DNA from: Shinella lacus
Lineage (GTDB): Bacteria; Pseudomonadota; Alphaproteobacteria; Rhizobiales; Rhizobiaceae
Assembly: GCF_010994755.1 (NCBI RefSeq)
Contig: NZ_WHSB02000002.1
Coordinates: 620,001-684,000 of the forward strand
DNA: 64,000 bases
Reading direction: 5' to 3'
Each line of letters starts with the position of its first letter. Within the stretch, counting starts at the first letter, position 1. Shown here piece after piece: positions 28,603 to 50,445 of the stretch. The notes below the pieces were generated by a model. The model was given only the letters and a program-made list of their open reading frames with translations. It did not search any database and was not told where the DNA came from. A program made the translations under genes and the position numbers.

Positions 28603-28627
28603 AATGTGCAGGAGATCGCGTTGTTCC
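28603..28627 (-). promoter_or_regulatory. EcfG/RpoE2-type promoter for the DUF2934 gene
   Basis: On the minus strand GGAAC, 16 nt, CATT: equal to the GGAAC-N18-TT consensus of the alphaproteobacterial general-stress sigma factor. The start codon is 29 nt downstream. Confidence 0.6.
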
Positions 28628-28637
28628 TTAGTACACG

Positions 28638-28662
28638 GGAACATCGTCGACCTGCTTCCGTT
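28638..28662 (+). promoter_or_regulatory. EcfG/RpoE2-type promoter for the 61-aa gene
   Basis: GGAAC, 16 nt, CGTT: a perfect match to the EcfG consensus. The start codon is 27 nt downstream. Only about 10 bp separate it from the opposite-facing promoter at 28603-28627. Confidence 0.7.
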
Positions 28663-28689
28663 GCAGCTTGACCAACAGGAGGACGTGCA

Positions 28690-28875
28690 ATGGCAATCGA
28701 GAACGCACCGACCGATAAAGGCAAGGAAGGCGCCAGAGGCCTTCACAAGGCCACACGAGCCGAGGAGCGCAAGGTTGAAGCCGAGAAGGGTTCAGACATC
28801 GCCAAAGGCGCTGATCGCTTCGAGGAGCGCTCCAGAAGCTCAGACGGCAAGAGCGCGGGCGAAAAGCAGAAGTGA
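28690..28875 (+). CDS. Small hydrophilic protein of unknown function
   Basis: A 61-aa protein made mostly of charged residues (KGKEGARGLHKATRAEERKVEAEKG), probably disordered. Start certain: AGGAGG lies 7-8 nt before the ATG. The EcfG-type promoter suggests it is made in the general stress response, like other small hydrophilic proteins. No family is recognised. Confidence 0.7.
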   Translation: MAIENAPTDKGKEGARGLHKATRAEERKVEAEKGSDIAKGADRFEERSRSSDGKSAGEKQK

Positions 28876-28893
28876 ACCGGCAGCTTTAACACA

Positions 28894-28928
28894 GATAGCC
28901 GCCCGGCAGGGGATACCGGGCGGCGTAT
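28894..28928. terminator. Hairpin between convergent genes
   Basis: GATAGCCGCCCGG can pair with CCGGGCGGCGTATC with small bulges, in the 63 bp between the convergent 61-aa and CsbD genes. No strong U-run on either side. Confidence 0.4.
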
Positions 28929-28938
28929 CTAGTGCTGC

Positions 28939-29142
28939 TTACCAGGTCTGGCGGCCGTACCAGTCGTCGACGTCTTTCGTGGCTTGATCCTTCGCGTAGC
29001 CGTAACGCTCCTGGATCTTGCCTTCGAGCTGATCGCGCTTGCCGTCAATGACGTCCAGATCGTCGTCAGTGAGCTTGCCCCACTGTTCCTTGATCTTGCC
29101 CTTGACCTGCTTCCAGTTACCTTCAACACGGTTCCAGTCCAT
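28939..29142 (-). CDS. CsbD family stress-response protein
   Basis: A 67-aa protein with the classic CsbD pattern: MDWNRVEGNWKQVKGKIKEQWG followed by LTDDDLDVIDGKRDQLEGKIQERYG. In Bacillus, csbD is a general-stress gene; the biochemical role is unknown. The ATG with AAGGAGA before it gives this start. A near-consensus EcfG promoter (GGATC instead of GGAAC) lies 35 nt upstream. Confidence 0.88.
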   Translation of the reverse strand: MDWNRVEGNWKQVKGKIKEQWGKLTDDDLDVIDGKRDQLEGKIQERYGYAKDQATKDVDDWYGRQTW

Positions 29143-29177
29143 CGTGGTCTCCTTCATTAGGACGTTGATGGAAAAGG

Positions 29178-29202
29178 AATGCGTGAGGGACGATTTTGAT
29201 CC
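29178..29202 (-). promoter_or_regulatory. Near-consensus EcfG promoter for csbD-like gene
   Basis: Minus strand GGATC, 16 nt, CATT: one mismatch to GGAAC with exact spacing, 35 nt before the start codon. Confidence 0.4.
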
Positions 29203-29216
29203 CTACCGTCGAGTCG

Positions 29217-29489
29217 CTACCGAGGATTGGGCGTATGTTCATCGCCGTGAATAAGGTGATGCAGAGTAAGCCCGGTATTCCACGAGATCCTCGCCACCAT
29301 GTACATTGTGGGGTTCGCCCGGCCCTCAAGGATCGAAATGTATGAGGGGGCGGTAATCCCGCACAGCTTCGCGAACTCCACCTTGTTGAGCCCGCGACGG
29401 ACCTGCTCTCGTTCCATTACAGCCGCCATGTTCCGAACCACCAAGCGAGCGAGTTCGGTCTCTAGGCGTTCTCTTTTCGCCGCGGTCAT
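29217..29489 (-). CDS. XRE-type helix-turn-helix regulator
   Basis: A 90-aa protein with a single HTH domain (about residues 25-85): RRGLNKVEFAKLCGITAPSYISILEGRANPTMYMVARISWNTGLTLHHL. Its start overlaps the stop of the preceding HTH gene by 4 bp (ATGA), so both are translated together. Together with the repeated sites upstream they look like a phage-type repressor pair. Target genes are unknown. Confidence 0.78.
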   Translation of the reverse strand: MTAAKRERLETELARLVVRNMAAVMEREQVRRGLNKVEFAKLCGITAPSYISILEGRANPTMYMVARISWNTGLTLHHLIHGDEHTPNPR

Positions 29490-29740
29490 TCCTGCCTCAG
29501 CGCCACGCCTGGGCCGGGTGAGACATCGCCGTTATCTAGAAAAGCAATTCCAGCCTTCTCGAGGGCGGCGCGGATGGCGTCGACAGTGCGGGGCTTAAGT
29601 GGTGGCCCCATACCTTCAGCCTTTGGGTCAAAAGCCTCAAATCGGGTGACCGTATTCGTAGAGACTTGAGCAAGTGCGGCGAGATCCCTCACGCCCAAAC
29701 TCAACGCGATGCGCGCCATACGGCACTGTACCGGCAACAT
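29486..29740 (-). CDS. HTH DNA-binding protein
   Basis: An 84-aa protein with an HTH core ALSLGVRDLAALAQVSTNTVTRFEAFD and a second half (PRTVDAIRAALEKAGIAFLDNGD) typical of short XRE-type regulators in rhizobia, in which the HTH is followed by a conserved IRxALExAGIxFL stretch. First gene of a two-gene operon. Its upstream region carries three GTAGCG repeats. Confidence 0.75.
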   Translation of the reverse strand: MLPVQCRMARIALSLGVRDLAALAQVSTNTVTRFEAFDPKAEGMGPPLKPRTVDAIRAALEKAGIAFLDNGDVSPGPGVALRQE

Positions 29741-29752
29741 TTTCGTAATCCT

Positions 29753-29813
29753 GTAGCGAAAACGCCTTGACGTAGCGTTTAGTCGTGATAATCTCTACAC
29801 GGTAGCGAAAACG
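29753..29813. repeat. Three GTAGCG repeats between divergent genes
   Basis: GTAGCGAAAACG occurs at 29753-29764 and 29802-29813, and GTAGCGTTTAG at 29772. All lie between the two-HTH operon (minus, start 29740) and the 158-aa gene (plus, start 29840), the expected place for repressor operators. Confidence 0.55.
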
Positions 29814-29839
29814 AAACCGGCACACAAGGAGCATTCACA

Positions 29840-30316
29840 ATGCAAACGACCACGCATGACTCCATCACAGACAGAAGACTCGAACCGCGTAGGCTGCTCC
29901 CGAGAAGACAGCCACCATTCATTTACGAGCAAGCGGCTGCCACCGAAATTCCCAGAATGGCAGCCCTTGCCGAACAGCTGCAGGCCAGCATGGTCGAGTT
30001 GCAACCCATGCCAGACGCGGCAATGAACTCAATCAACGACGCACACAGCGCCGTGGTTGAGGCCCTCGCCGCAATGCCGGTCACCAAGTCCTCCGAACTC
30101 GCCGACAAGCTCCGCGTGCTCGCCTACCTCGTCGAGGGCGACGAGGGTGGCGCGCTGAATCTCGAGACCGTGATGCTGCAGGCGGTCCTGCACGACCTTG
30201 GCGCCTACCGGATTCGCGAAGCGATCGCCGAAGGGTTCGGTGTCGTGGAGACGATCTACGGCGATTTGCTCCAGCTTCGGGCCGGCGAGTACGCCCGTAT
30301 CGATCGACCAAACTAG
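29840..30316 (+). CDS. Unknown 158-aa element protein
   Basis: Soluble, helix-rich protein with no recognised domain. The N-terminal 40 residues are Arg/Pro-rich (RRLEPRRLLPRRQPP); the remainder is mostly helical (LAEQLQASMVELQ, LADKLRVLAYLVEGDEGGALNLETVMLQAVLHDLGA). AGGAG at 8 nt supports the ATG. It diverges from the two-HTH operon across repeated sites, so it is the likely target of those regulators. Confidence 0.6.
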   Translation: MQTTTHDSITDRRLEPRRLLPRRQPPFIYEQAAATEIPRMAALAEQLQASMVELQPMPDAAMNSINDAHSAVVEALAAMPVTKSSELADKLRVLAYLVEGDEGGALNLETVMLQAVLHDLGAYRIREAIAEGFGVVETIYGDLLQLRAGEYARIDRPN

Positions 30317-30517
30317 TTTCCTGCCAGCCGCTCCGCCGCATGTTGCGGCTGGCCTTTGCCCCAGCGCGCCTTCGTGGCAGCGCGGGGTCTTTATCGCCGA
30401 GAGGCGGTGGCACGGTCGCGTAGTACGTCCGTGTCGGGTGTCGCCGCGGCGCTTGAACCGTCGCCGGCGGCACCCACCAGTTGAGCCGACCCGGCCCCGC
30501 ATGTCCCGGTAGGCCTT

Positions 30518-30558
30518 GCCGCTGCGCGCCCGAGGGGGCTTTGTCGCGCGGCCTTTTT
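30518..30558 (+). terminator. Terminator-like hairpin
   Basis: GCCGCTGCGCG pairs with CGCGCGGC around a GC-rich loop, then CTTTTTCTT. Confidence 0.5.
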
Positions 30559-30601
30559 CTTACCAGGAGGCCGCCGCCCACCGAGCGCTGGCATATGAAG
30601 A

Positions 30602-30681: not shown

Positions 30682-30706
30682 GGAACAAATTCGCGGCCTT
30701 TTCATT
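30682..30706 (+). promoter_or_regulatory. EcfG/RpoE2-type promoter for the DUF892 gene
   Basis: GGAAC, 16 nt, CATT; start codon 36 nt downstream. Confidence 0.65.
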
Positions 30707-30742: not shown

Positions 30743-31237
30743 ATGAAAACGCTTGCCGACATTTTCGAGCACACACTGCAGGACGTCTATTACGCTGAAA
30801 ACGCTATCACGAAGGCGTTGCCGAAGGTGGCAAAGGCTGCGAAGAGCGCCGAGCTCAAAAAAGCGGCCGAGGCGCATCTTGCGGAAACAAAGGAGCAGAT
30901 CAAGAAGCTGGAGCAGGTCTTCCAGTCGATCGGCAAGAAGGCTTCCGGTGAGAAGTGCGACGCCATCGAGGGGCTAATCAAAGAAGCCGATGGCCTGATG
31001 AAAGAGGCGGAAGGCATCGCGCTCGATGCCGGCCTGCTCGCTGCCTGCCAGGCTGTGGAGCACTATGAGATCGCACGTTACGGTTCGCTCCGCGAATGGG
31101 CCAAGGACCTCGGCCACGACGAAGCGCACAAGCTTCTAAGCGAGATCCTTGACCAGGAGAAAGCGACCAACAACAAGCTGACGAACCTCGCCGTCACGTC
31201 GATAAACAAGACGTCGGCCGCCAAGAAGGCTGCGTAG
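30743..31237 (+). CDS. DUF892 (YciE/YciF-type) ferritin-like protein
   Basis: A 164-aa four-helix-bundle protein: MKTLADIFEHTLQDVYYAENAI is the DUF892 opening, and conserved ferritin-like positions appear in EAHLAETKEQIKKLEQVFQSIG and LLAACQAVEHYEIARYGSL. Members are stress-induced in many bacteria; metal binding is inferred from fold. An EcfG-type promoter lies upstream and a terminator downstream, so it is a single-gene unit within the element's stress cargo. Confidence 0.88.
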   Translation: MKTLADIFEHTLQDVYYAENAITKALPKVAKAAKSAELKKAAEAHLAETKEQIKKLEQVFQSIGKKASGEKCDAIEGLIKEADGLMKEAEGIALDAGLLAACQAVEHYEIARYGSLREWAKDLGHDEAHKLLSEILDQEKATNNKLTNLAVTSINKTSAAKKAA

Positions 31238-31730: not shown

Positions 31731-31940
31731 TTAATGACCCAGCGCAATCTGGCATCGGTCAAGCAGGCTTTCGCCATCGACCGGGTTTTCCTGATAGACT
31801 CGGAGCACAAAAAGAGCCAAATCCTCACGTTCCCGCGCTTCGAGGCGGTCAGTTGCAAGGTGACCAACAACTTCAGCGATTACTTTGACTTCGTCAGGCT
31901 GGAAAATGCCTTTACGAGACAGTTTATCTGGAAGATCCAC
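31731..31940 (-). CDS. Small conserved-type unknown protein
   Basis: A 69-aa acidic protein (MDLPDKLSRKGIFQPDEVKVIAEV...REREDLALFVLRVYQENPVDGESLL). Its composition and the regular helix pattern fit small rhizobial proteins that begin LxRKxxFxPDDV. It is preferred over an overlapping plus-strand ORF, which has no such pattern. Function unknown. Confidence 0.6.
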   Translation of the reverse strand: MDLPDKLSRKGIFQPDEVKVIAEVVGHLATDRLEAREREDLALFVLRVYQENPVDGESLLDRCQIALGH

Positions 31941-32074: not shown

Positions 32075-32099
32075 GGAACCTTTCCGTCTATTCGTGGTT
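32075..32099 (+). promoter_or_regulatory. EcfG/RpoE2-type promoter without a downstream gene
   Basis: GGAAC, 16 nt, GGTT (GGAAC-N18-TT). A strong terminator begins about 47 nt after it, so the transcript would be a small RNA. Confidence 0.5.
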
Positions 32100-32105
32100 T
32101 GACAC

Positions 32106-32176
32106 TTGCACCAGTCGCCAACTGAGTGCTTCCCCCCAAACTACGGGCGCCGACCTCCCAGTGGCGCCTTTTTTTT
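32106..32176 (+). ncRNA. Candidate stress-induced small RNA, about 70 nt
   Basis: Start inferred 6-8 nt after the EcfG -10 element, end at an intrinsic terminator with a T8 run. The predicted RNA has an unpaired 5' part containing CUUCCCCCCAAAC, a C-rich stretch like those that pair with Shine-Dalgarno sequences, then a GGCGCC stem with an 11-nt loop. No convincing ORF fits between promoter and terminator. The call rests on the promoter-terminator pair only. Confidence 0.45.
32146..32176 (+). terminator. Strong intrinsic terminator
   Basis: GGCGCC, 11-nt loop, GGCGCC, then TTTTTTTT. No plus-strand gene ends before it. Confidence 0.8.
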
Positions 32177-32214
32177 GCTTAGCGCCGGCAGCGGTGTTCC
32201 TATACGCTGGCTAA

Positions 32215-35323: not shown

Positions 35324-35348
35324 GGAACTATATCGCCTCCGGTGAGTT
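35324..35348 (+). promoter_or_regulatory. EcfG/RpoE2-type promoter for the 49-aa gene
   Basis: GGAAC, 16 nt, AGTT; start codon 28 nt downstream. Confidence 0.6.
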
Positions 35349-35376
35349 TCTCGCAGAGAAGCGAGGGGCCTTGGAG

Positions 35377-35526
35377 ATGAGTACACGCCTGACACTGGAC
35401 GAGATAGTGGCCCGCCTGCGCCAGCTAGCCGACGAGGCAAGAGAGCTGAGCGACCGGATCGAAGAGCGACGCAGTGCTCTCGATGAGGAACCTGAAGACA
35501 TGCCCAACCAGTCCCAGCTTGCGTGA
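35377..35526 (+). CDS. Small coiled-coil-like protein (49 aa)
   Basis: Begins MSTRLTLDEIVARLRQLADE and continues ARELSDRIEERRSALDEE with heptad-like Leu/Ile spacing, ending in a polar tail. Too short for automatic ORF cut-offs. Support comes from an EcfG-type promoter at the usual distance and a coding-like composition; a GAGG lies about 10 nt before the ATG. Function unknown; the amphipathic helix suggests it binds a partner or itself. Confidence 0.5.
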   Translation: MSTRLTLDEIVARLRQLADEARELSDRIEERRSALDEEPEDMPNQSQLA

Positions 35527-35986: not shown

Positions 35987-38137
35987 TTAGTCGGAATACG
36001 CCGACTCCACCGCGGCCTTCACACGTTGACCCAAGTGAGACGCGGCAGCGTCTACCGCCTCCTGAGGCGACGATATATTGCTGATCGAGACCGGCGCGTG
36101 GACGTTGACTACCGGCTGCTGACGATTGACGTCACGCACCTCCTGCACGCCGCGAGACGGCTGTAGCAGTTGAACGATAGTGCCGGCATCAAGCGACATC
36201 GGCTTGCTGTTCAACCCGCCCATCAACTGGTCTACCGTCTTGGGCATTCCACCGGTCTGTTGCGGACCCGCGAGATATGAGTCCATGCTTGCCGCACGAC
36301 CACCGTCATCGTCTGCGGACGGCTGGAGGGGAACGAAGGTATCCTGGAACCACTTCGAAGGCGTGGTGATCCGCTCATCTAGCCACCTGTTAAGGCGACC
36401 AGCATCCTTGCGGTTCTTCGCATAGAGCTCTTCCACACCCTCTTTGGTAGAGGGTATGCCGGCGACGTGATCGACCATCTGGAAAGCGGCGAGCAAGCCC
36501 TTCCAACCTATGCCCCAACTACCGGGTTTGTTGTCGGGCGCCGGCTTGTTTTTGCCATCTCCCGGCACGTTTGGAATCGGAACGTCTTTTAGGATTCCGC
36601 TGATCTTGCCCACGGCCCTCATGATGCCGATCGCGGTCGTGACGCCGGTGATCTTGGCGAGAGCGGTGGCAAGGGTAGTGATTGCACCGGCAACAAGCGC
36701 GATGCCCCCAGCCGCGAGGGTGAGTTTCAGACCCTTGCCGGCTATGTCGCCCAAAAATTGAGCGATTGGGTTGTTCTTCAAATCTTCATTGAATTCACGG
36801 ATTGCCTTCCCGTATCCCTCGAACTTCGCGAAGATTCCGCCAATTCGATCGGCAGCTCCGTCTGGATCCACCTCACCGAACAGGAGGTCGCCTAAGCCTT
36901 TAATTCCTTCCTTGACGCCGCCCTTATAGCCGAGCCCCTGCATAAAGCCGGACACGCCAGCACCCGTCTCATCGAAGATCGAGGCCCGATCCCCAAGCGT
37001 ATCGAGCACTTCACCAATGGCGGTGGTGCCTTCCTTGATTGTCGGGAGCCAGCCCTCGCCAATGTCCTCGAAAACGAAGTCTATTTTGTTCCGCAGGATC
37101 TGGAGGGCGTTGCCGGTGGTGCCGGCGCGGGCGACAAACTCCTTAAATGCGGAGCCCGTATATTTGCTGCGGTCCGCCACCGCGAAGAGCGCTTGGTCGA
37201 GCAACCCGATATTGCCAACAAGAGGCAAAAACGCCTTCGCCTCATCGCCGAAAAAATCGGATAGCAGCGAGATGTGGCGATCCTTCGGAGCTTTGGCGAT
37301 CGCCTTGAGAACCGTCTTCAGGGCACCAGGTGCGTCCTTTTGCATATCCTTGGCAATTTGCGGAAGGTCCAGACCAAGGGCGCGGGCCGCGTCCTTCTGC
37401 GACTTCTTCGCGGAGCCGCCCCGCGTCATCGCCTTCACAACATTTTGCATCGCTGTGCCGGCCGTGGAGGCGTCTGCCCCTGCGGCAATCATGGCCGAGC
37501 CGAGCGCCGCCACCTCTTCTTTCGCGAAGCCGCCCATTTCGGCTAGGGAGCCAACGCGCAAAAGGTACTCGGTGATTTCGCTGGCCTTGGATGCCATGCC
37601 ATTTGAGAGATGATTAATCGAGTCGGCCAAGTCGCCGGTTTCGGCAACCGTCAACCCGAATTGCGTCTTTAGCTTCGCGAGGCTTTCGCCAGCCTCACCC
37701 GCCGACATGTCGAAGGCGATGGCAACCTGACCGGCCATCTTAGAGAACGCCTGCAGGTCATTGGTCGCGACGCCGCTTTCCGCCGCTGCCGCGTACAGCG
37801 CGGCAATTTCCGTGCTCGCCATCGGCAGTTCGCGCGACATGAGCTTGATGGAGCGCGCGATCCCGGCAAGCTGCTCATCCGAACCGTCGACGACCTTTTT
37901 CACGTCCGCGAAGGCCGACTCGAACTTAATTGCCGCGCCGACGGTCGCACCGATGCCTTCGCGCAGCCCGACATAACCGGCCCCGAATGCCAGGACTGAA
38001 CCGGTTATACCGCGGAGGGGCGAGAGCATGGCCGTCTGCTGACGTTGCAAGCCGGACAACACCCCCTGGATGCGGCGCGCCGGACCCGTCACGCCATCCA
38101 GAAGAGTAAGTTTGAGGACGCTACTGAGTGAGGCCAT
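35987..38137 (-). CDS. Phage tail tape measure protein
   Basis: A 716-aa protein of the TP901/PhageMin_Tail type. Residues about 80-290 contain the tape-measure core (LPMASTEIAALYAAAAESGVA, GEAGESLAKLKTQFGLTVAETGDLADSINHLSN). Several hydrophobic segments lie near residues 470-500 (LTLAAGGIALVAGAITTLATALA). In a virion the protein sets tail length and helps DNA entry. AAGGAG precedes the ATG. It follows the tail chaperone gene by 12 bp, the normal order, but no downstream tail-tip genes exist here. Confidence 0.9.
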   Translation of the reverse strand: MASLSSVLKLTLLDGVTGPARRIQGVLSGLQRQQTAMLSPLRGITGSVLAFGAGYVGLREGIGATVGAAIKFESAFADVKKVVDGSDEQLAGIARSIKLMSRELPMASTEIAALYAAAAESGVATNDLQAFSKMAGQVAIAFDMSAGEAGESLAKLKTQFGLTVAETGDLADSINHLSNGMASKASEITEYLLRVGSLAEMGGFAKEEVAALGSAMIAAGADASTAGTAMQNVVKAMTRGGSAKKSQKDAARALGLDLPQIAKDMQKDAPGALKTVLKAIAKAPKDRHISLLSDFFGDEAKAFLPLVGNIGLLDQALFAVADRSKYTGSAFKEFVARAGTTGNALQILRNKIDFVFEDIGEGWLPTIKEGTTAIGEVLDTLGDRASIFDETGAGVSGFMQGLGYKGGVKEGIKGLGDLLFGEVDPDGAADRIGGIFAKFEGYGKAIREFNEDLKNNPIAQFLGDIAGKGLKLTLAAGGIALVAGAITTLATALAKITGVTTAIGIMRAVGKISGILKDVPIPNVPGDGKNKPAPDNKPGSWGIGWKGLLAAFQMVDHVAGIPSTKEGVEELYAKNRKDAGRLNRWLDERITTPSKWFQDTFVPLQPSADDDGGRAASMDSYLAGPQQTGGMPKTVDQLMGGLNSKPMSLDAGTIVQLLQPSRGVQEVRDVNRQQPVVNVHAPVSISNISSPQEAVDAAASHLGQRVKAAVESAYSD

Positions 38138-39284: not shown

Positions 39285-39309
39285 GGAACAAACAATCGCT
39301 GTCCGAATT
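39285..39309 (+). promoter_or_regulatory. EcfG/RpoE2-type promoter for the 39-aa membrane protein
   Basis: GGAAC, 16 nt, AATT (GGAAC-N18-TT). The start codon is 36 nt downstream on the plus strand, opposite to the phage genes. Confidence 0.55.
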
Positions 39310-39344
39310 TGAGCGTCAGATTTTCTGACAACGTGAGGTCTGCA

Positions 39345-39464
39345 ATGCTCGATCGTGTGAAACGACTGAAAGATAGCGACAGCACAATGGTGGCTGCCGC
39401 AGCACTCATTCTCGCCGGGATTGTTATGATCGGGGTGCCGCCCGTCCTCTTGCTTGGCAGCTAG
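39345..39464 (+). CDS. Small single-pass membrane protein (39 aa)
   Basis: A charged N-terminus (MLDRVKRLKDSDST) and one hydrophobic helix (MVAAAALILAGIVMIGVPPVLLLGS). GAGG at 6 nt before the ATG and an EcfG-type promoter at normal distance support a real gene, which lies against the direction of the phage genes. Possible stress-induced membrane peptide; function unknown. Confidence 0.5.
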   Translation: MLDRVKRLKDSDSTMVAAAALILAGIVMIGVPPVLLLGS

Positions 39465-39902: not shown

Positions 39903-40637
39903 CTACCGGTGGCGCCGGGCGAACGCGTTTTGCTCGGCGACGATTTTCGCCCACCCGGTCAGCTCAACCTTCGGCTTCGCCTCCTCCGGCTTCACGGCAG
40001 GCGCGAAGCCCATTGACTTATTCATGGCCGCGACAACTCGCGCCCACGACTCCTTGGCCTCGGCTACCTTCTTTAAGCCGCGAGGCGAGGCCGCGGCACG
40101 CGCATGCACGGCCTGCATCCGTGCTTCATACTTCTCATCGACATAAGCGAAAGGCGCTGCACGGCGGTCGGCTACGGCAGTGGCGAACCGTGCCGCTACC
40201 GCTTCGTCGGGTGTGTACCACGTCTCCGCCTTCATGATCGTGCGCGCCGCTGTCTCGGTGATCCCTGCGCGCTTGCCATACACCCTGGCGTACGCAACGG
40301 CATGCGCTTCCAACTGCTCCACCGTCTTCTGATGCGCAGCCGAGTCGCCGATCGTGATATTCATCGGCTCATGAATCATAAGGATCGATCCGTCGAGCAT
40401 AGTGATGGTGTCGCCCGCCATGGCTATCAGGCTGGCGGCCGAAGCGGCAATGCCAATGATTTCGACATGCACCTTGCCGCGGTGAGCGGCGAGGATGTTG
40501 TAGATCGCGCTGCCATCGACGGCGATGCCGCCACCGCTGTTTATGGTGACGGTGATATCACCGCTGTACGGCAGCGCGGCGCGGACGGTCGTCGGGGTGA
40601 AGTCCTCCCCGACGACGCCAAACAGATCAAGACGCAA
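39903..40637 (-). CDS. ClpP-like phage head maturation protease
   Basis: Serine protease of the S14/ClpP type used by many phages for prohead maturation. Motifs: ITVTINSGGGIAVDGSAIYN, the nucleophile Ser in GIAASAASLIAMAGD, the catalytic His in MLDGSILMIHEPMN. The remaining residues form a charged helical tail, as in prohead proteases. The TTG at 40637 (AAAGGAG at 7 nt) is preferred to an earlier TTG; about 244 aa. No capsid gene accompanies it. Confidence 0.85.
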   Translation of the reverse strand: MRLDLFGVVGEDFTPTTVRAALPYSGDITVTINSGGGIAVDGSAIYNILAAHRGKVHVEIIGIAASAASLIAMAGDTITMLDGSILMIHEPMNITIGDSAAHQKTVEQLEAHAVAYARVYGKRAGITETAARTIMKAETWYTPDEAVAARFATAVADRRAAPFAYVDEKYEARMQAVHARAAASPRGLKKVAEAKESWARVVAAMNKSMGFAPAVKPEEAKPKVELTGWAKIVAEQNAFARRHR

Positions 40638-41562
40638 GGGCGGTCTCCTTTGGGGCAAGGCTGTATTCAAATTCCGGGCTGCGCTCGGCGCGCTTCGGCG
40701 CGGGCTTCAGTTCGGAGACAGCCTGCGCTGCGGCATCGCGTTGGTCGTACGAGGGCGTCCAGAACGGCGTGGCGCCGGCGTCGAGCGCGGGCAGCATAAT
40801 CTCGCATCCCAGCGGGGCGATGTTGTACCCGCTCTGGTCGGGGAGGATTTTCGAGCGGCGGAAGGGCTTGCGCACAACCTCAAGGAACCCGTGCTCGGTC
40901 TGGACCACGCCGTATGTCAGTGGGTTTTCGACGGTATCAGAGCGATCGGTCATCATGCCACGTCGATGCTTGTCATGCGCGCGAACGTGGCGTTGGAGTT
41001 CGTCGCGAACGGGCCGCGCGCCATCGATCTCGCACCACATCCAGACCGCGTCTTCGCCGAGCACTTCTCGGTAAAGTTGGTGCTGCGAACGGCTGTGTTC
41101 GGGGCCGAGCAGCGGGGGTTTTCCTTCGGGGCGATCCTCATTCGCAGCCTGCACGGCGATCGATGCGGCAGCGACCTCGGCGAGAAGGTCGCGGATCTGG
41201 AGTGCAGCCTTCGGGTACTCCCGGCGCAACCGCTTCTCGGCTGCCTCACTAGCAGCCTTGGCTTCATCGTACTTCCGCTGACGCTGGTCGGTAGCCTCGG
41301 CCTCAAGTGCCGCTTCGTGGTCCCGCTCAAGACGGTGGACGCGGGCACGCGCCTGGTCCACATCGATGCCTGCTTCTGTCTTCGCGTCCAGAAAACCGCG
41401 CAAGGACTTCTTGTCGGCAGTCAGGAGGTTGGCGTCGTATTGCTCTTCAGCGGCCGTTACGGCAGCCTCAGCAGCTTCGAGCTCAGCCTTGGCCTTTTCG
41501 ATCGCGGCGGATAGGTCGGCGGAGGATGACTTGCCGAGTATCTTGTTGATCAGTTTTCCCAA
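40627..41562 (-). CDS. Coiled-coil phage-region protein
   Basis: About 311 aa. The N-terminal 130 residues are a long coiled coil (AAIEKAKAELEAAEAAVTAAEEQYD, RARVHRLERDHEAALEAEATDQRQRKYDEAKAASEAAEKRL); the C-terminal half is globular (YGVVQTEHGFLEVVRKPFRRSKILP, AAQAVSELKPAPKRAERSPEF). No family recognised. The TTG at 41562 has AAGGA at 7 nt; another TTG at 41577 overlaps the upstream stop. It overlaps the protease start by 11 bp, so the set is co-translated. Confidence 0.6.
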   Translation of the reverse strand: MGKLINKILGKSSSADLSAAIEKAKAELEAAEAAVTAAEEQYDANLLTADKKSLRGFLDAKTEAGIDVDQARARVHRLERDHEAALEAEATDQRQRKYDEAKAASEAAEKRLRREYPKAALQIRDLLAEVAAASIAVQAANEDRPEGKPPLLGPEHSRSQHQLYREVLGEDAVWMWCEIDGARPVRDELQRHVRAHDKHRRGMMTDRSDTVENPLTYGVVQTEHGFLEVVRKPFRRSKILPDQSGYNIAPLGCEIMLPALDAGATPFWTPSYDQRDAAAQAVSELKPAPKRAERSPEFEYSLAPKETALAS

Positions 41563-43826: not shown

Positions 43827-43851
43827 GGAACATTCTACCTTCCGTGAAGTT
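43827..43851 (+). promoter_or_regulatory. EcfG/RpoE2-type promoter for the second DUF2934 gene
   Basis: GGAAC, 16 nt, AGTT; start codon 22 nt downstream. Confidence 0.6.
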
Positions 43852-43873
43852 TCTCGGCCGAAGGAGAACCCAC

Positions 43874-44116
43874 ATGGAAACTGATCCGAAAAAACGAATC
43901 CGAAATCGCGCGTACGAACTGTGGCAAGCCGCCGGCAAACCGCCAGGCGACGGCGCAGAGTATTGGCTTCAGGCAGAGGCAGAGGCCGCGCAAGTCGAGC
44001 CTGTGATCGATGCGGACACCCCCGATGCTGCTGCTCGTCGAGGCGTTGAGCGCGAACATCCGGAAACGGTGGTGAAAGTTGGCGGTGCAAAGAGGAAGGC
44101 TGCTGCGAGCAGGTAG
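43874..44116 (+). CDS. DUF2934 protein, second copy
   Basis: 80 aa. The core KKRIRNRAYELWQAAGKPPGDGAEYWLQAEAEA matches DUF2934; the tail is basic and Ala-rich (AKRKAAASR). AAGGAGA precedes the chosen ATG; an in-frame upstream start at 43844 is less likely because it lies before the predicted transcript start. It shares promoter class with the other DUF2934 gene 15 kb away in the same element. Confidence 0.8.
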   Translation: METDPKKRIRNRAYELWQAAGKPPGDGAEYWLQAEAEAAQVEPVIDADTPDAAARRGVEREHPETVVKVGGAKRKAAASR

Positions 44117-44148
44117 TCGAGTCGCTATGCAGTCGATATGGGCCGAGC

Positions 44149-45153
44149 CTAATCCTTTCTCGCAACGAGGCCTTCCATATAGATTTGCTGGCCTTGCGTC
44201 GTAAGGGAAAGAAATTCAGCATGTCCGCCTTTGGTCGTTTGGCTAACGCGAGCGGCGATCAGCCCCAAAGCAACGAACTGTACTTTGACTTTCGCTAAGT
44301 CCATTTCATTTATATCGTACGGAGTGTAGTCGCAATTTGCCTCTTTCATCGCTGTCTTAACCGCACTCGAAATCACATAGTCAGTTTTTCCAACCGTCAA
44401 CTCCGCGGAAAGGGGAAGAAAAATTTGTCTCCACGTGAGTGATATTTCACGGTCCGTGTAAGTATAATAACTACTGCTGTATTGATTCCGGTGCCGGGTA
44501 CGAAAACGGATCTCTACGGTATCATCCAACCCAGCGATGTTATCGAACATCGGTTGCTGGTTTTTTTGCAAAATGGCGACCTGATTTCGTAACTCCGCAT
44601 TTTCCTGCAGGGCTTTATTAGCTTGTTCCAATGTGTCTTGATTGGCAGCCACATCGCCGCGTATCCACCCGGTCTGCGGATACGCACTGAATGCATGCAT
44701 AAGCGATTTGAGAACCGCAAGCTGCAAATCCTGGCGATTTGTCCAAGTTTTCACCAAGCGCCCCAACATGACTTTGTCCCGAAATGCGTCAAGCGCCGCC
44801 GCTAGCCTTGGCTCGATATCGCTGTTCCTTACCGATATTGCTCCAGGCTCCCCGTGGACGAAGGCGATAACAAATTTGCCAGTATCTACCGCGTAGTCAT
44901 ATTCCCTTTCCGTAAAGCTGATGCCCTCCGCATCAAGAGAGCCATACCGCCCACCGATGATAAGCAGGTAATAGTCACATTCATCGATAACTTTCTTGAT
45001 GTAGGTGAGTTGCTCGACATCAGCGGCTGGAAATAGCTCCATTCCTGCGGGGATATGGTTCAGGTCGAGAATGTTTCTAATCGTTTCCTGCCGCTCATCG
45101 ACGAGATCGCGGAATGTCGATGAGACGAAAACCTGGTATTTCTTTGCGACCAT
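44149..45153 (-). CDS. DUF4062 protein, candidate defence or signalling factor
   Basis: A 334-aa protein. Residues about 4-110 are a DUF4062 domain (YQVFVSSTFRDLVDERQETIRNIL, YYLLIIGGRYGSLDAEGISFTEREYDYA), a TIR/SEFIR-like fold found at the N-terminus of many NTPase and effector proteins linked to defence. Then follow a coiled coil (NKALQENAELRNQVAILQKNQ) and a unique C-terminal domain (about 210-334) of unknown type. No NTPase domain is present. AT-rich, and divergent from the 254-aa gene. A defence role is inferred only. Confidence 0.7.
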   Translation of the reverse strand: MVAKKYQVFVSSTFRDLVDERQETIRNILDLNHIPAGMELFPAADVEQLTYIKKVIDECDYYLLIIGGRYGSLDAEGISFTEREYDYAVDTGKFVIAFVHGEPGAISVRNSDIEPRLAAALDAFRDKVMLGRLVKTWTNRQDLQLAVLKSLMHAFSAYPQTGWIRGDVAANQDTLEQANKALQENAELRNQVAILQKNQQPMFDNIAGLDDTVEIRFRTRHRNQYSSSYYTYTDREISLTWRQIFLPLSAELTVGKTDYVISSAVKTAMKEANCDYTPYDINEMDLAKVKVQFVALGLIAARVSQTTKGGHAEFLSLTTQGQQIYMEGLVARKD

Positions 45154-45242
45154 CGCCGGCTCCCCGCTGAAGTTGACCTTTAGATCATGGCGGTGGAAAC
45201 GTTGTCGAGAGGTGAGCCCTCTTCTGAACAGAAGGATTTTAA

Positions 45243-46007
45243 ATGAGAGGCTTAGATGAACTGGCCCATCTGGGCGCGGCCCTCAAATCACAGGTCAAAT
45301 TTGCTGCGCCTCTAGAGGTCAGCATGGCAGCGTCAGGCTGGAAAGCCCGCGTTGCCAGTTGGGTCAGCGATAATTTCCCTAATACCGGGCTATCGGCCGA
45401 ATGGGCCGCACTTCCAATTATCGAGATAGGTCTCCCACTCTCAAACCCTACTAGCCTGGCAAGGGTGATGGCCGAGGGGCATGTCGACCGTCACCTTCAA
45501 TGGCTCGCCGATTTGCCATTTAAGGTTCGGATGCGCGATCTTACCATCCCAGAAGCGGTAAATGCCGAGAGCATTGAAGTCGGGCGCCGCGAAGTGAAGC
45601 TTAACGTAACCTCACGCGCGATCGTTGACCCTTCCCGCATTGATGAACTGCGAAATATTACTTCGCCGAATTTCGATTTGGCAAAGCTGATCCGCCTATG
45701 TGAAGAGCTGAACTTGGCATTTGCGACCCAGAGTTATCTTTCAATGGCGATGCTCACTCGCGCAATCGTGGATCACGTTCCGCCCATATTCGGAAAGTCG
45801 ACCTTTTCCGAGGTTGCCAATAACCATGGTGGCGCGACACTGAAACGTGAGCTCAAAAACCTCGACACAACGGCAAGAAGCATTGCTGACCTACACCTCC
45901 ATTCCCAAATCAGAAGAAAAGAAGTCCTGCCGACGATCACGCAAGTCGACTCCTCCAACTCGCTGGACCTACTCTTGGCCGAGGTCATCGTCGCGCTTAG
46001 CGAGTGA
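45243..46007 (+). CDS. Unknown 254-aa protein divergent from the DUF4062 gene
   Basis: Soluble, mostly helical protein. The C-terminal half (FDLAKLIRLCEELNLAFATQ, YLSMAMLTRAIVDHVPPIFG, FSEVANNHGGATLKRELKNLD and HLHSQIRRKEVLP) looks like a conserved domain I have seen on stand-alone hypothetical proteins in many bacteria; HEPN-like by helical content, but no clear RxxxxH site is present. The N-terminal part is variable. Separated by 89 bp from the DUF4062 start, so they could share control. Function unknown. Confidence 0.6.
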   Translation: MRGLDELAHLGAALKSQVKFAAPLEVSMAASGWKARVASWVSDNFPNTGLSAEWAALPIIEIGLPLSNPTSLARVMAEGHVDRHLQWLADLPFKVRMRDLTIPEAVNAESIEVGRREVKLNVTSRAIVDPSRIDELRNITSPNFDLAKLIRLCEELNLAFATQSYLSMAMLTRAIVDHVPPIFGKSTFSEVANNHGGATLKRELKNLDTTARSIADLHLHSQIRRKEVLPTITQVDSSNSLDLLLAEVIVALSE

Positions 46008-46161: not shown

Positions 46162-47748
46162 TTAGTCTGAAGGCTGATCGTCGACCACGACAAGGTGCTT
46201 CGTCCGGCGTGACGGAGAGCCTTCTTCGACAATCCGTATGCTCCCGCCGTCAAGCAATCGTTGCTGAGCCGCGACCAACTCCTTCTTGGACAGTCCCTTG
46301 GCATCGGGATGAGCCGCAATCACCTTCACCGCATATGTCGCGGACGGTGACGGGCTGAGCCTCTGGCCTTGCTGGAACAGCTTCGCGAGGGTTTCAACGA
46401 ATACCCGCTCGGCACGCGCTGCTAGCAATGCGGATCCCGCAGCGGGCCGCCCGTCGTCAAGGACGAATATGCCGCCCTGCCAACGCATGCGGATCTCGCC
46501 GCCCTTGCGCCCATAGTTGGCCTTCATTCCCTTCATCACGCGGGCATCGTCATCATCCTTGTCAGCCGTAAGGTAGAGCCGACTGCGCACGGAGTTGTTC
46601 CACGCGGTAGAGCCAGAGATGCCCGTTCCTGTCTGCATGCCAGCTACAGACGGGTGCGACAGTAGGAGGAAAGTGCAATCGAGCTCCATTGCGAGACCGC
46701 GCAACGTCGATATGAAGAACCGCACCTGATTGCGGTCGATCTCGTTACCGCCGAAGAGGTCTGCAGAGGTGTCCAGCACCACCAGAGAAGGCTGGAAATC
46801 GACGATCTCATCGACAAGCGCCTGCATCTTATCCGTAATTTGTATCCGGCCTTTGGCGTCCGCTCTGACAAGTTCGGCATCCTGGCCGGCGGCGGGTATG
46901 ACGCGCATACCGCCGAGGGCGGCTAGGGTCGTCCCCTGTGCCACACAAATGTCATCCAGCCGTCTGTGCAGTTCGTCCCACTCATCTTCCGCGGCGAGTA
47001 CCAGCGTGCGGCCGTATGCCGGCGAAAGGCCTAGCGTCTCAGTGCCCATGCAACCAGCGGCAGCAATCTGCAAAGCGACCAGTGATTTTCCTGTGCCGCC
47101 ATCACCGGAGAGCAGCGTGACATTTCGAGCCGGAATAAGTTCATCAATATACCACTTGCGCGACGGAACTGACGCATTCGCAAAATTAGCCGGGCTGATG
47201 ACCGTGAAAAGGTTCTTCGCGCTAGGCGGCACGTTGTCATTCGCCGGGACGGGCGGGAAGAGCTCTCCGGCAAGCTTCGCCATGGACTCCTGCAACCGCG
47301 TGGCGGCAGTCTCAGGAGGACGAGCGCCTATATCGCGCGCGATGATGCCGGCGGCGATGGCGGCATCGGCATCTGGTCCGGCAATTTGCTCTACGTGGGG
47401 CTGGCCAACATCGCTGAAAAAAATAAGCATCGACGTTTCCGGCGAGCATCCGTCGATCTGATCTACGAGAATGCCGACGCGGTTTTCGACTTGCACATCT
47501 TCCGGCCATTCATCGGCCGGCAGCGACTCGAGATTTGCCGGGTCGGCATGCCCCCAGTCTGGCGAGCCGTCGGGATGCGCTGGCGCCAGAACGACGTTGA
47601 CGATGGCGTGGCCGTGGTCGACGAGGCGATCGTGCGTCCCGAATACCAGCGCCTCGCGACTGTCAGGGTCCGGTTTCTTGAGTAGGGGAGGCATTCCCCG
47701 AAGTTCTTCGATATTCGTTTCAAGCTGCTTTTGGTTCAATGCGGTCAT
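46162..47748 (-). CDS. AAA family ATPase, RepA/AAA_25-like replication helicase
   Basis: About 528 aa. Walker A LLSGDGGTGKSLVALQIAAAG and Walker B PSLVVLDTSADLFGG with a downstream CTFLLLSHPS sensor mark a RecA-fold hexameric helicase of the RepA type used by plasmids, phages and integrative elements. The N-terminal part (about 1-150) is an unassigned domain that may bind DNA or act as primase. Last gene of the alpA operon; its start overlaps the 84-aa gene. An ATG at 47760 is the alternative start. Confidence 0.82.
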   Translation of the reverse strand: MTALNQKQLETNIEELRGMPPLLKKPDPDSREALVFGTHDRLVDHGHAIVNVVLAPAHPDGSPDWGHADPANLESLPADEWPEDVQVENRVGILVDQIDGCSPETSMLIFFSDVGQPHVEQIAGPDADAAIAAGIIARDIGARPPETAATRLQESMAKLAGELFPPVPANDNVPPSAKNLFTVISPANFANASVPSRKWYIDELIPARNVTLLSGDGGTGKSLVALQIAAAGCMGTETLGLSPAYGRTLVLAAEDEWDELHRRLDDICVAQGTTLAALGGMRVIPAAGQDAELVRADAKGRIQITDKMQALVDEIVDFQPSLVVLDTSADLFGGNEIDRNQVRFFISTLRGLAMELDCTFLLLSHPSVAGMQTGTGISGSTAWNNSVRSRLYLTADKDDDDARVMKGMKANYGRKGGEIRMRWQGGIFVLDDGRPAAGSALLAARAERVFVETLAKLFQQGQRLSPSPSATYAVKVIAAHPDAKGLSKKELVAAQQRLLDGGSIRIVEEGSPSRRTKHLVVVDDQPSD

Positions 47749-47974
47749 CTGGGGCGACATCCCTCTCGGCGATTGCGGCGAGTTCGTTGGCAATTTCGGG
47801 TGCAAAGGTCACGGCTGAACCGCCGGAGATTGATGGACCGAAAACGCGAAGGCCGGTTTTCGACTGCACTAGACGCAGACCGTATGCGCGAATTCCAGGT
47901 GCGATTTCAGCGTCAAAGCGCGCGAGGGTGTTCCCGCCGCCTGGAGGCGCGGGTCTGATAGATAGGATCTTCAT
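47720..47974 (-). CDS. Small conserved element protein (84 aa)
   Basis: MKILSIRPAPPGGGNTLARFDAEIAPGIRAYGLRLVQSKTGLRVFGPS is a small beta-rich domain resembling SpoVG-type folds; such proteins sit beside AAA ATPase genes in rhizobial prophages. AAGGA precedes the ATG. It lies between alpA and the AAA gene in the same direction and overlaps the latter. Confidence 0.65.
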   Translation of the reverse strand: MKILSIRPAPPGGGNTLARFDAEIAPGIRAYGLRLVQSKTGLRVFGPSISGGSAVTFAPEIANELAAIAERDVAPDDRIEPKAA

Positions 47975-48003: not shown

Positions 48004-48213
48004 TCATGCTGCAGCCCTCGCCGAAATCTTTGCTTGGATCCAGTCTGTCACTTCTGACCGGACGAACGCCACGCGCCTGTCACCAAGATCGACCGCAATA
48101 GGAAAGCGGCCTTCGAATCGGTAGCGATTAAGCATGCTGCGGGACATGCTCGTCAGACGGCATGCGTCGTTCAAGCTGATAAGCATAGGCACATTGTCGT
48201 TTGCAGGCGTCAT
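48004..48213 (-). CDS. AlpA-family transcriptional regulator
   Basis: 69 aa with the AlpA/MerR-like HTH: LISLNDACRLTSMSRSMLNRYRFEGRFPIAVDLGDRRVAFVRSEVTDWIQAKI. AlpA proteins act as excisionase or activator of integrase in satellites and cryptic elements. GAGGAG at 5 nt decides the ATG against a longer open frame. First gene of the alpA-84aa-AAA operon, behind an operator-covered promoter. Confidence 0.82.
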   Translation of the reverse strand: MTPANDNVPMLISLNDACRLTSMSRSMLNRYRFEGRFPIAVDLGDRRVAFVRSEVTDWIQAKISARAAA

Positions 48214-48432
48214 GGTGCTCCTCTGCCGAACACGGAACATCGTTCCCGAGTCGGTCCAATAGCGTGAATAGAGAAGGATCTGGTACCGACCGACTGGCCG
48301 GGTTGAGTTGCGACACGCCATTGTGGCGCGGCCCGTTAGGACCTGATCTGACGCGGTAGGGCTTACGTCGCCAGCCTACCTCGGCGGGAACCACCCCGCA
48401 CTGAGCGCGCACCAAGACGCGCCCATCGTCAA

Positions 48433-48461: not shown

Positions 48462-48470
48462 GATGGTCAG

Positions 48471-49643
48471 CTAAATATAGTCCGCCCATTGCTGCATTAG
48501 CGCCCTCCTCCGCTCAAGGGCATCGGATCGCGCATAGGATCTCTCCACCGCGTCGCCAACGGCATGAGCCAGTGCTGCCTCTGCGATCTCGCGGGGTGTA
48601 TGCGCGACCTCGGTTGCCCAATCACGAAAAGATGATCGGAAGCCATGGACGGTTGCCCCCTCTCCTCCCGCCGACTTCAGCGCCTTACCGAGAGTCATAT
48701 CTGACAGAGGTTTCTTGTCTCGGACGCTTGGGAAGACGAGCTCGTTGACGGATTGCGCCGCCATCGTCTTCAGCAACGCTACAGCTTTATCCGAGAGCGG
48801 CACTCGGTGAGGCTTTCCGGGTTTGGTCCGTGCCGCTGGAATCGACCAGATCTTCTTCTGCAGGTCGATCTCAGACCAAAGTGCGCCTCTCACCTCACCG
48901 CTTCTAACAGCAGTCAGAATGGCAAACTCGAGTGCCCTCGCCCCAACGCCTGCCACATTGGTCAACTTCTTCATAAAGCCCGGCACTTCCTCATGGGGCA
49001 TAGAGGCGTGGTGCCCTTTGCTAGTGAGCGCATCAGGTTTGTGCAGAACGTGCTCGAGGTTGCCCCTCCAGGCGGCCGGGTTCTCACCGCTGCGATGCCC
49101 CTCCACCTTCGCGGAATCGAGAACTCGCTCTATCGCTTCGCGCAACTTCTCAGCGGTTTCCTGCTTCGAACCCCACAATGGTCGGATTGCGGCAAGCACA
49201 TGGTCGATGGCAACGTCTGCAATCGGTTTGTCGCGGAGACTGGCGGCATGATTTTCGATCATGTTGCGCCAGCGTGCTTCAGTCTTGGCACCACGCCAAC
49301 GCCCCACCCGTACAGCTTCATCGATGTAAAAGTCGGCGTAATTCCCAAAGGTCATTACGTCGCGCGGAGGGGCATTCTCGGCCTTTCGCTGTTCGATAGG
49401 GTCTACGCCATCGCGAACGAGCTGCCGAGCCTCGGCCGCTCTATCCCGTGCCTTGGCCAAGGACGTATCGGGATAAACACCAAGGCCCATCTGCCGCCGC
49501 TTGCCGCGGAAGGTGAAATCGAGGATCCAATAACGCGAAGCGCCCTTGGCGACGAGCCACAGTCCGCCACCATCGCGTAGCTTCGCCGCCTTGCTTGCGG
49601 CGATCGCCTTCACCGTCAGCACATTTCGAGTATGGCTCCCCAT
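48471..49643 (-). CDS. Tyrosine-type site-specific integrase
   Basis: 390 aa. Order: an N-terminal DUF4102 arm-binding domain (TVKAIAASKAAKLRDGGGLWLVAKG), a core-binding domain, and a catalytic domain with the Arg in EFAILTAVRSGEVRGALW, HGFRSSFRDWA (H-x-x-R) and the C-terminal Tyr in DAVERSYARSD. It integrates and excises the element at tRNA-Asn. The ATG with AAGGA is chosen over a TTG 15 nt upstream. Its 5' end overlaps the right arm-type repeat. Confidence 0.93.
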   Translation of the reverse strand: MGSHTRNVLTVKAIAASKAAKLRDGGGLWLVAKGASRYWILDFTFRGKRRQMGLGVYPDTSLAKARDRAAEARQLVRDGVDPIEQRKAENAPPRDVMTFGNYADFYIDEAVRVGRWRGAKTEARWRNMIENHAASLRDKPIADVAIDHVLAAIRPLWGSKQETAEKLREAIERVLDSAKVEGHRSGENPAAWRGNLEHVLHKPDALTSKGHHASMPHEEVPGFMKKLTNVAGVGARALEFAILTAVRSGEVRGALWSEIDLQKKIWSIPAARTKPGKPHRVPLSDKAVALLKTMAAQSVNELVFPSVRDKKPLSDMTLGKALKSAGGEGATVHGFRSSFRDWATEVAHTPREIAEAALAHAVGDAVERSYARSDALERRRALMQQWADYI

Positions 49644-49647
49644 TTTC

Positions 49648-49673
49648 CTTCCCCGCAACTTTCCCCGCTTTTG
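49648..49673 (+). repeat. Candidate integrase arm-type site, right
   Basis: Near-copy of the left site at 28323-28349: two CTTCCCCGC-type motifs ending in CCCCGCTTTTG, just upstream of the integrase start, about 113 bp from the attR core. Confidence 0.5.
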
Positions 49674-49786
49674 GGGGTGTTGCTAGTTGTAGACGGTATG
49701 GTCACAATGGGCAAGGAGGACGCTGAATATTGGTAATTCAGCGGGTTGCGGGTAGACGGTAAAGTTGAAAGGGTCGCTATCCAATT

Positions 49787-49803
49787 TCCGGCCCGGGGAG
49801 CCA
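49787..49803 (+). repeat. attR core
   Basis: 17-bp copy of the tRNA-Asn 3' end, identical to 28254-28270. No other part of the tRNA is duplicated. Confidence 0.85.
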
Positions 49804-49919
49804 GATTTTGAGGGGCTGTGCTGAAAAGCGCGGCCCTTCTGCTTTTCCGGCATAGACGCAGTTAAGGAGCCATCCTTCCGCAGGATTGGCTCCCCGTCAA
49901 TGATCACGTGCTGCTTTCG

Positions 49920-50111
49920 CTATCGCACGTTCGTCGGCTGGCGCTTGATGTTCATCTGGAGTTCGTGGCGGCTGGCGAAGCGGCCGAAGAGCAGGAGAAG
50001 CTTGCGTTCCTCCGCCTTGTCCAATCCGTTCTTGCGGCAATGTTCGATTACATCGAGCACATTGCGGGTCTGGCGGGGGCTGAACTGGCGATTGTCGATG
50101 TGGTGCGTCAT
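49920..50111 (-). CDS. Small unknown protein (63 aa), stress-promoter gene
   Basis: MTHHIDNRQFSPRQTRNVLDVIEHCRKNGLDKAEERKLLLLFGRFASRHELQMN is a basic, helical protein of a type seen in many Rhizobiaceae; function unknown. GAGGAG at 7 nt supports the start. A GGAAC-N16-CATT promoter lies 36 nt upstream. It is the first gene outside the element. Confidence 0.7.
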   Translation of the reverse strand: MTHHIDNRQFSPRQTRNVLDVIEHCRKNGLDKAEERKLLLLFGRFASRHELQMNIKRQPTNVR

Positions 50112-50147
50112 GGCGGGCTCCTCGCTTCGGCATTCGGGCAGAGGAGG

Positions 50148-50172
50148 AATGCGCCGGGCGGCTTATTGTTCC
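50148..50172 (-). promoter_or_regulatory. EcfG/RpoE2-type promoter for the 63-aa gene
   Basis: Minus strand GGAAC, 16 nt, CATT; start codon 36 nt downstream. Confidence 0.6.
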
Positions 50173-50186
50173 CGGCGCTTTGATTT

Positions 50187-50396
50187 TCAGGCCACCATTC
50201 CGGCACCCGCCTGGCCGGCACTGCGGGCGAGGCTGTAGTCGCGATCGGGGGTGGCGCGGTGGAAGGTCTGGCTGCGGTCGCGCGGCCGCATAGCGGCGTC
50301 GCCGAGCGGCGTTCCGATTACCCCGTCGGCATAGGTGCCGGTCGCGATATCGTCGTCATGATCGACCGGGCTCGCCGGAAAAAGTCTGAAAAGCAT
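50187..50396 (-). CDS. Small unknown protein (69 aa), stress-promoter gene
   Basis: MLFRLFPASPVDHDDDIATGTYADGVIGTPLGDAAMRPRDRSQTFHRATPDRDYSLARSAG is polar and probably disordered. GGAGG at 7 nt supports the start. A perfect GGAAC-N16-CGTT promoter lies 25 nt upstream. No family recognised. Confidence 0.65.
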   Translation of the reverse strand: MLFRLFPASPVDHDDDIATGTYADGVIGTPLGDAAMRPRDRSQTFHRATPDRDYSLARSAGQAGAGMVA

Positions 50397-50420
50397 CCTG
50401 ATACCTCCAATTTTCCTTCA

Positions 50421-50445
50421 AACGAACGGGCGCGGTTTCCGTTCC
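50421..50445 (-). promoter_or_regulatory. EcfG/RpoE2-type promoter for the 69-aa gene
   Basis: Minus strand GGAAC, 16 nt, CGTT: perfect consensus; start codon 25 nt downstream. Confidence 0.7.

Follow-up and report, generated by a model that had tools for sequence, protein, structure and literature searches.

Small cargo genes of a predicted reduced prophage in Shinella lacus lie behind sites of the EcfG type

We analysed a stretch of 64,000 nt of Shinella lacus GCF_010994755.1 (the window; contig NZ_WHSB02000002.1, positions 620,001-684,000), taken from a genome of 7.04 Mb in 53 contigs. At 28254-49803 of the window lies an element of 21.55 kb, and many of its small genes follow sites of the type read by EcfG, the general-stress sigma factor of alphaproteobacteria (PMC3892343). 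The element has an integrase and is framed by attachment (att) repeats at a tRNA-Asn gene. In another genome, G020, the same site is empty and the right flank directly adjoins tRNA-Asn. These three features identify an integrated element. Its borders, its phage-type genes and its small genes with their promoter-like sites are as follows (positions in the window).

28196..28270, + strand: tRNA-Asn(GTT), the integration site (ARAGORN, Rfam)
28254..28270, + strand: attL core, TCCGGCCCGGGGAGCCA (17 bp), a direct repeat inside the tRNA-Asn gene
28382..28573, - strand: DUF2934 protein, 63 amino acids (DUF2934a; Pfam PF11154)
28603..28627, - strand: EcfG-type site for the DUF2934a gene (motif; matrix score 15.7)
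28638..28662, + strand: EcfG-type site for the 28690 gene (motif)
28690..28875, + strand: 61-amino-acid protein MAIENAP... (no Pfam or NCBIfam family)
28939..29142, - strand: CsbD protein (Pfam PF05532)
29178..29202, - strand: GGATC-variant EcfG-type site for csbD (one mismatch)
30682..30706, + strand: EcfG-type site for the DUF892 gene (motif)
30743..31237, + strand: DUF892 protein, 164 amino acids (Pfam PF05974)
35324..35349, + strand: EcfG-type site for the 35377 gene (motif; matrix score 12.9)
35377..35526, + strand: 49-amino-acid protein, among other small genes
35987..38137, - strand: tail tape measure protein (Pfam PF10145, PHROG)
39285..39310, + strand: EcfG-type site for the 39345 gene (motif)
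39345..39464, + strand: 39-amino-acid protein, hydrophobic in its C-terminal half; gene antisense to phage genes
39603..39860, - strand: terminase-small-subunit-like protein (weak; PHROG 57, E 1.3e-6)
39903..40670, - strand: ClpP-like head maturation protease (domain and PHROG searches)
43827..43852, + strand: EcfG-type site for the second DUF2934 gene (motif)
43874..44116, + strand: DUF2934 protein, 80 amino acids, antisense to phage genes, neighbourhood kept in related elements (Pfam)
44149..45153, - strand: DUF4062 protein (domain search)
46162..47805, - strand: AAA primase/helicase-like protein (domain and PHROG searches)
48004..48321, - strand: AlpA-type excisionase/regulator (Pfam PF05930)
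48471..49658, - strand: tyrosine integrase (domain search)
49787..49803, + strand: attR core, the same 17 bp (direct repeat)

No large terminase, portal or major capsid gene, as expected of a complete temperate phage, was found among the open reading frames (ORFs) searched, which were a subset of those in the window. The element is most likely a reduced prophage lodged in a Shinella tRNA-Asn gene.

A preliminary description of this DNA had listed eight GGAAC-N18-TT sites lying 22-36 nt before gene starts. All eight are where it placed them, and each start is an ATG with a Shine-Dalgarno-like sequence. Six of these genes, together with csbD, lie between attL and attR. The CsbD and DUF892 identities that it gave agree with the Pfam families above. 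The published EcfG consensus is given as GGAAC-N16-CGTT (PMC3892343, PMC7083833), which equals a spacing of N18 to the TT.

The window contains 13 GGAAC-N18-TT matches, all from 28.6 kb onward; shuffled windows had a mean of 5.8, and 0 of 100 shuffles reached 13. Eleven matches fall in 28254-50650. Because the genome total is 686, about 2.2 would be expected in 22.4 kb. We called a match start-linked when, 10-60 nt after it, an ATG opened an ORF of 35 codons or more and was accompanied by a Shine-Dalgarno-like tetramer. By this definition 9/11 matches in 28254-50650 were start-linked, as compared to 0/2 in the remaining window and 8/59 in a control of 40 chunks of 20 kb (800 kb) from two contigs of the same genome, where no chunk held more than four matches. 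These figures uphold the view that the tight distance between motif and start is beyond chance. When all 1024 pentamers were ranked by start-linked count, GGAAC scored 8 and the runner-up 3; TCGCC equalled GGAAC in bare matches (11), not in the start-linked count. With spacers of 12 to 25 nt, N18 yielded 8 start-linked matches, N19 yielded 4, and all others yielded at most 2. The count is 8 instead of 9 in these two series because their region ended at 50750 and cut the cfa ORF.

Over the whole genome, the pattern GGAAC-N18-TT-N3-33-AGG-N4-12-ATG occurs 104 times vs. 9 times for the reversed pattern. Ten of the 104 sit in this 22 kb, two of them being a doubtful match at 31833 and the match before cfa. 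With uniform density assumed, the Poisson probability of the clustering is 3e-12 for ten patterns and 3e-9 for eight. Among the matches listed (100 of the 104), no further 22-kb stretch exceeds five. The bare motif is rarer in the genome than its reverse (686 vs. 1045), which makes this control unfavourable to the motif. The enrichment signal is the clustering and the link to starts, not the bare frequency.

A position matrix was built from 124 sites upstream of homologues, mostly in other genomes, of six window gene families, and was scanned with spacers 18 and 19; DUF2934a, 35377, 39345 and the match at 32075 are outside the training families. At a threshold of 12, the region 28254-50650 gave 11 matches, nine of which are followed by a called start at a distance of 12-50 nt (the region has 37 genes). 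There were 0 matches for the 38 genes in the remaining window, and 34 in the control, where 8 preceded starts (751 genes). The matrix scan proposed in the preliminary description thus shows enrichment before starts. At threshold 14, the start-linked counts for the element region, the rest of the window and the control were 7, 0 and 2, and at threshold 16 they were 3, 0 and 2. The nine start-linked matches include the GGATC site of csbD and exclude cfa.

We then looked upstream of homologues, using shuffles that preserve base counts only for these and the viral upstreams below. For the 28690 family, the motif was sought within 110 nt in 79 distinct upstreams from 80 named loci of several Rhizobiales genera. 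It was present in 70, whereas the reversed motif was found in 2 and the shuffles gave 0.56. The homologues within the genus all have it (12/12), and in most Bradyrhizobium loci the site lies farther up, at 44-80 nt. The motif was found in 28/29 upstreams of DUF892 genus homologues (29 of 29 loci used, among the matches listed) and in 21/28 upstreams of DUF2934 (43874) homologues, the latter from 29 loci among the matches listed (30 became loci, out of many more matches). The 39-amino-acid protein has it in 4/4. The one-mismatch site suggested earlier for csbD reads GGATC and is a matrix match, and GGATC-N18/19-TT is kept in 4/4 genus orthologues found. GGATC sites are included in the EcfG table of S. 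melonis (PMC6599016), and csbD is reported as a direct EcfG target in Sphingopyxis (PMC7083833). The spacer sequences diverge widely while the sites stay, so the conservation of the sites exceeds general similarity.

The genome also encodes the machinery of the response. A nepR gene is present twice (Pfam). On contig C14 it stands with phyR and an adjacent extracytoplasmic function (ECF)-type sigma gene (PhyR and sigma by NCBIfam). On contig C10 (G000:C10:2755) a second phyR-nepR pair has a csbD gene as its neighbour, and EcfG-type sites are present there. The motif precedes phyR, nepR and the C10 csbD of this genome. The second pair suggests that the stress response has another branch. Elsewhere in the same genome, five EcfG-type start-linked matches cluster in 7.6 kb (G000:C2:141345-148965).

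The right flank and two further matches complete the set of sites.

32075..32100, + strand: EcfG-type motif before a possible 70-nt RNA (putative; motif)
49920..50111, - strand: 63-amino-acid host flank protein, outside attR
50148..50172, - strand: EcfG-type site for the 50111 gene (host flank; motif)
50187..50396, - strand: 69-amino-acid host flank protein, outside attR
50421..50445, - strand: EcfG-type site for the 50396 gene (host flank; motif)
50572..50596, + strand: match before cfa (ATG 50623), probably chance

The 50111 and 50396 genes are host genes, because they are outside attR and the right flank was matched in 20/21 genomes. The motif is kept in 16/16 and 15/18 of their distinct upstreams, respectively. 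A regulon spanning the element and its right flank had been proposed; the sites are present, but these two genes are not cargo. Similarly, of a proposed promoter before a small RNA, the motif at 32075 stands but the RNA is not corroborated. In 32075-32178, the roughly 70 nt after the site are predicted to fold stably (z -3.29) and include a T run; a terminator scan at this candidate found none, Rfam returned two tRNAs only in 26000-52000, and no fetched locus held a relative. A non-coding RNA under EcfG control is described in R. etli (PMC3892343). Taken singly, the sites at 32075 and before 35377 could be chance. The cfa match (50572+), absent from the earlier list of sites, was rejected as marking a regulon member, the motif being found in 1/15 cfa upstreams, the window's own. 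The match at 31833 was rejected as a promoter as well, since it falls inside ORF 31731-31940. G003, G007, G009, G010 and G013 have a copy of the att core next to the two core flank genes, and integrases that share 48-73% identity with that of the window (G009 being a partial match). DUF892 lies near the right-flank site in G009 and G013; in G007 it is at the far end.

Related elements carry similar genes and sites. At the same tRNA-Asn site G007 has a prophage of about 49 kb, which encodes terminase, portal, major head and sheath proteins. In it, EcfG-type sites precede DUF892, a DUF982 gene and an ORF of 24 amino acids. G015 has two elements, one at tRNA-Pro (C11:678020-699503, about 21.5 kb, 42-bp repeats) and one at dusA (C1:173087-195977, 22.9 kb, 27-bp repeats). 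The tape measure gene, the small-terminase-like gene and gene g40627 are common to the window element and both of these; the protease and a small tail protein were matched in the tRNA-Pro element only, not in the dusA element. At their integrase-distal end, both G015 elements carry the 24-amino-acid ORF/DUF2934 unit divergent from the 28690 gene, with EcfG-type sites, and both have a second DUF2934 gene, antisense to phage genes, behind such a site. The dusA element has csbD with GGATC as well, and DUF892 was matched in neither. On contig C12 of G004, an internal DUF2934 gene and the 39-amino-acid gene both have sites, while the internal DUF2934 gene of G014 contains a stop and has no site upstream. 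No large terminase, portal or capsid gene was found in the tRNA-Asn, tRNA-Pro and dusA elements among the ORFs searched (for G015, some ORFs only). A reduced gene set is in part common to these three elements, which measure 21.5-22.9 kb; from this gene content it is possible that they form a family resembling phage satellites.

The morons, or lysogenic conversion genes, of prophages are autonomous small genes with their own promoters, often antisense among the phage genes. The 39345 and 43874 genes have this form, each being an extra gene among phage genes, with its own site and in antisense orientation. We examined whether viral contigs hold similar units. Close relatives of DUF892 and CsbD were found in 35 and 29 IMG/VR loci, respectively. 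Of the 35 DUF892 loci, 34 were used and yielded 29 distinct upstreams; for CsbD, where loci lacking upstream sequence dropped out, no more than 27 of the 29 loci yielded 23. GGA[AT]C-N18/19-TT was present in 29/29 of the former and 14/23 of the latter. On 14 loci (L291, L292, L294-L303, L305 and L306, some nearly identical), DUF892 is on the + strand and is flanked by two - strand genes, a distal tail gene on one side and the tape measure gene on the other; these tail genes are named by PHROG for L297 and by similarity to L297 for the other loci. As judged from gene order, this is the layout of a moron. The motif is present in 12/12 distinct upstreams of a 55-amino-acid gene near CsbD on viral contigs and in 2/2 of a lipocalin-like gene (L311-L315). 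In the isolated Sinorhizobium phages phiLM21 and phi3LM21 (L353, L354), GGAAC-N19-TT precedes the same 44-amino-acid ORF; 1/10 and 1/4 matches were start-linked in the stretches used (25.8 of 50.8 kb and 21.4 of 41.4 kb).

Taken together, these results make it very likely that the element is a reduced prophage carrying stress morons with EcfG-type sites, which host EcfG would transcribe on stress. The putative morons comprise those grouped near the tRNA (DUF2934, 28690, csbD and DUF892) and the single genes 39345, 43874 and 35377; the most likely account of their positions and sites is that they are prophage morons and that host EcfG transcribes them. Each is preceded by the type of site that EcfG reads. 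By analogy with related bacteria, stress would activate PhyR, and PhyR would take NepR off EcfG. The freed EcfG would then transcribe core host genes, among them the two just outside attR, and the cargo of the element as well. If host EcfG does transcribe the cargo units, a carrier would gain extra stress proteins on demand, and the element would need no regulator of its own. The earlier proposal that the element plugs cargo into the PhyR-EcfG response is supported at the sequence level by the borders, the machinery, the conservation, and the recurrence on other elements and viral contigs.

Several observations weigh against this interpretation. The stricter GGAAC-N17-19-GTT is at chance in the window (5 vs. 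a mean of 4.2). For 35377, no homologue except itself was found in the 247 genomes searched, only 4 of which are of the genus, so it has no conservation footprint. In relatives, the DUF2934a site precedes a hydrophobic 24-amino-acid ORF just before the DUF2934 start in 8/8 distinct places (10 matches, from 12 loci in which this ORF was sought), and a pattern search at DUF2934a in the window found no such ORF in that position. The motif is missing from 7/28 DUF2934 upstreams and from 9/23 viral CsbD upstreams. The viral contigs yielded neither MAIENAP nor the 43874 gene, and GenBank phages neither MAIENAP nor DUF892. A relative of the G007 large terminase was present in only 2/23 IMG/VR records and the contigs may include host DNA, so their phage status rests on the neighbouring genes where checked. 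In G020 (C2:2277 kb), the 28690 gene, csbD and DUF892 form a group, and the 20 kb examined there contain neither a tRNA nor a recognised phage gene. For the 28690 family in named genomes, a tRNA lies within 1 kb in 8/80 loci, and an integrase relative was found in 1/80 in the sequence stretch examined. These genes are therefore not bound to elements, and the cargo was probably drawn from the host gene pool.

Four other explanations were considered. The sites may be real promoters that serve a different ECF sigma factor, one that likewise recognises a -35 box of GGAAC. Such boxes are common among ECF sigma factors and the two phyR-nepR loci hint at more than one branch, but the same motif precedes the genome's own phyR and nepR, and N18/19 to a TT, often GTT, fits the EcfG consensus as published; we regard this explanation as unlikely. 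It is somewhat less likely still that the genes are ordinary chromosomal stress genes among which a phage merely integrated. That two of the eight are host genes by the integration site, and that DUF892 and the 28690 gene can also be found outside recognised elements, for instance in G020, would suit such an arrangement. It does not account for the six genes and csbD inside attL-attR, for the 24-amino-acid ORF/DUF2934 and 28690 pair inside att repeats at tRNA-Pro and dusA in G015, for DUF892 within tail operons on the 14 viral loci, or for the empty site of G020, which has none of these genes beside it.

Phage-derived elements often respond to host stress, and the promoters might serve the life cycle of the element, with EcfG triggering excision or replication. 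We find this very improbable, because the window element has no start-linked GGA[AT]C-N18/19-TT before integrase, AlpA, primase, protease or tape measure genes (ATG starts only). As for the other genes there, the stretch 44000-46000 is low in G+C (0.50-0.53) and holds the DUF4062 gene and a divergent gene of 254 amino acids; a defence role for DUF4062 and its neighbours was dropped, with no PADLOC match among 8 proteins. Finally, chance matches picked by eye would agree with the two or so matches expected in 22 kb, with the GTT result and with the random look of the cfa and 31833 matches. For the whole set, chance is rejected by the shuffles, the own-genome controls, the pentamer and spacer series, the matrix and the conservation upstream of homologues, and its probability is negligible.

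We consider stress morons read by host EcfG as the best explanation of this element, and a broader statement seems to us rather more probable than its opposite. Temperate phages and elements of Rhizobiales as a group may use host EcfG for a shared moron repertoire (DUF892, CsbD, DUF2934, lipocalin and tiny proteins), so that conversion to stress tolerance occurs only under host stress. In Shinella, a compact and possibly satellite-like family would distribute this module over tRNA genes and dusA. Regulons for general stress tend to be seen as circuits of the host; in this case the same promoter type occurs on a mobile element, its relatives at other sites and many predicted prophage contigs. 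This suggests that phages supply conditional stress genes via a host sigma factor instead of their own control, and it offers a lead on several tiny unnamed proteins and on DUF892, CsbD and DUF2934. Morons and the EcfG regulon are each already known, and their combination is new; no report of EcfG-driven phage cargo was found in the titles and abstract openings of the papers listed by a survey of the open PMC literature, which does not cover subscription papers.

The arrangement can be compared with several known systems. It resembles the PhyR-NepR-EcfG response of R. etli, Sphingopyxis and S. melonis in the motif and its spacing, in csbD as a target and in the machinery encoded here. It differs from those descriptions in that several putative targets are inside a phage-derived element; the word 'prophage' is absent from PMC3892343 and PMC6599016. 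The phiLM21-type prophages of Sinorhizobium are likewise rhizobial temperate phages with a lipocalin and accessory genes (PMC12429752), whereas 'sigma' and 'promoter', central to our analysis, are absent from that paper's main text. The Blc lipocalin of lambda-like phages is also a stress-type lipocalin carried by a temperate phage; its records are enterobacterial, whereas EcfG is described as an alphaproteobacterial factor (PMC3892343). There is a likeness in form to morons in general as well: the cargo genes of the window are small independent units with their own sites, some of them antisense. Unlike typical morons, several of them on one element share a promoter type, and it is the type belonging to the general-stress sigma factor of alphaproteobacteria.

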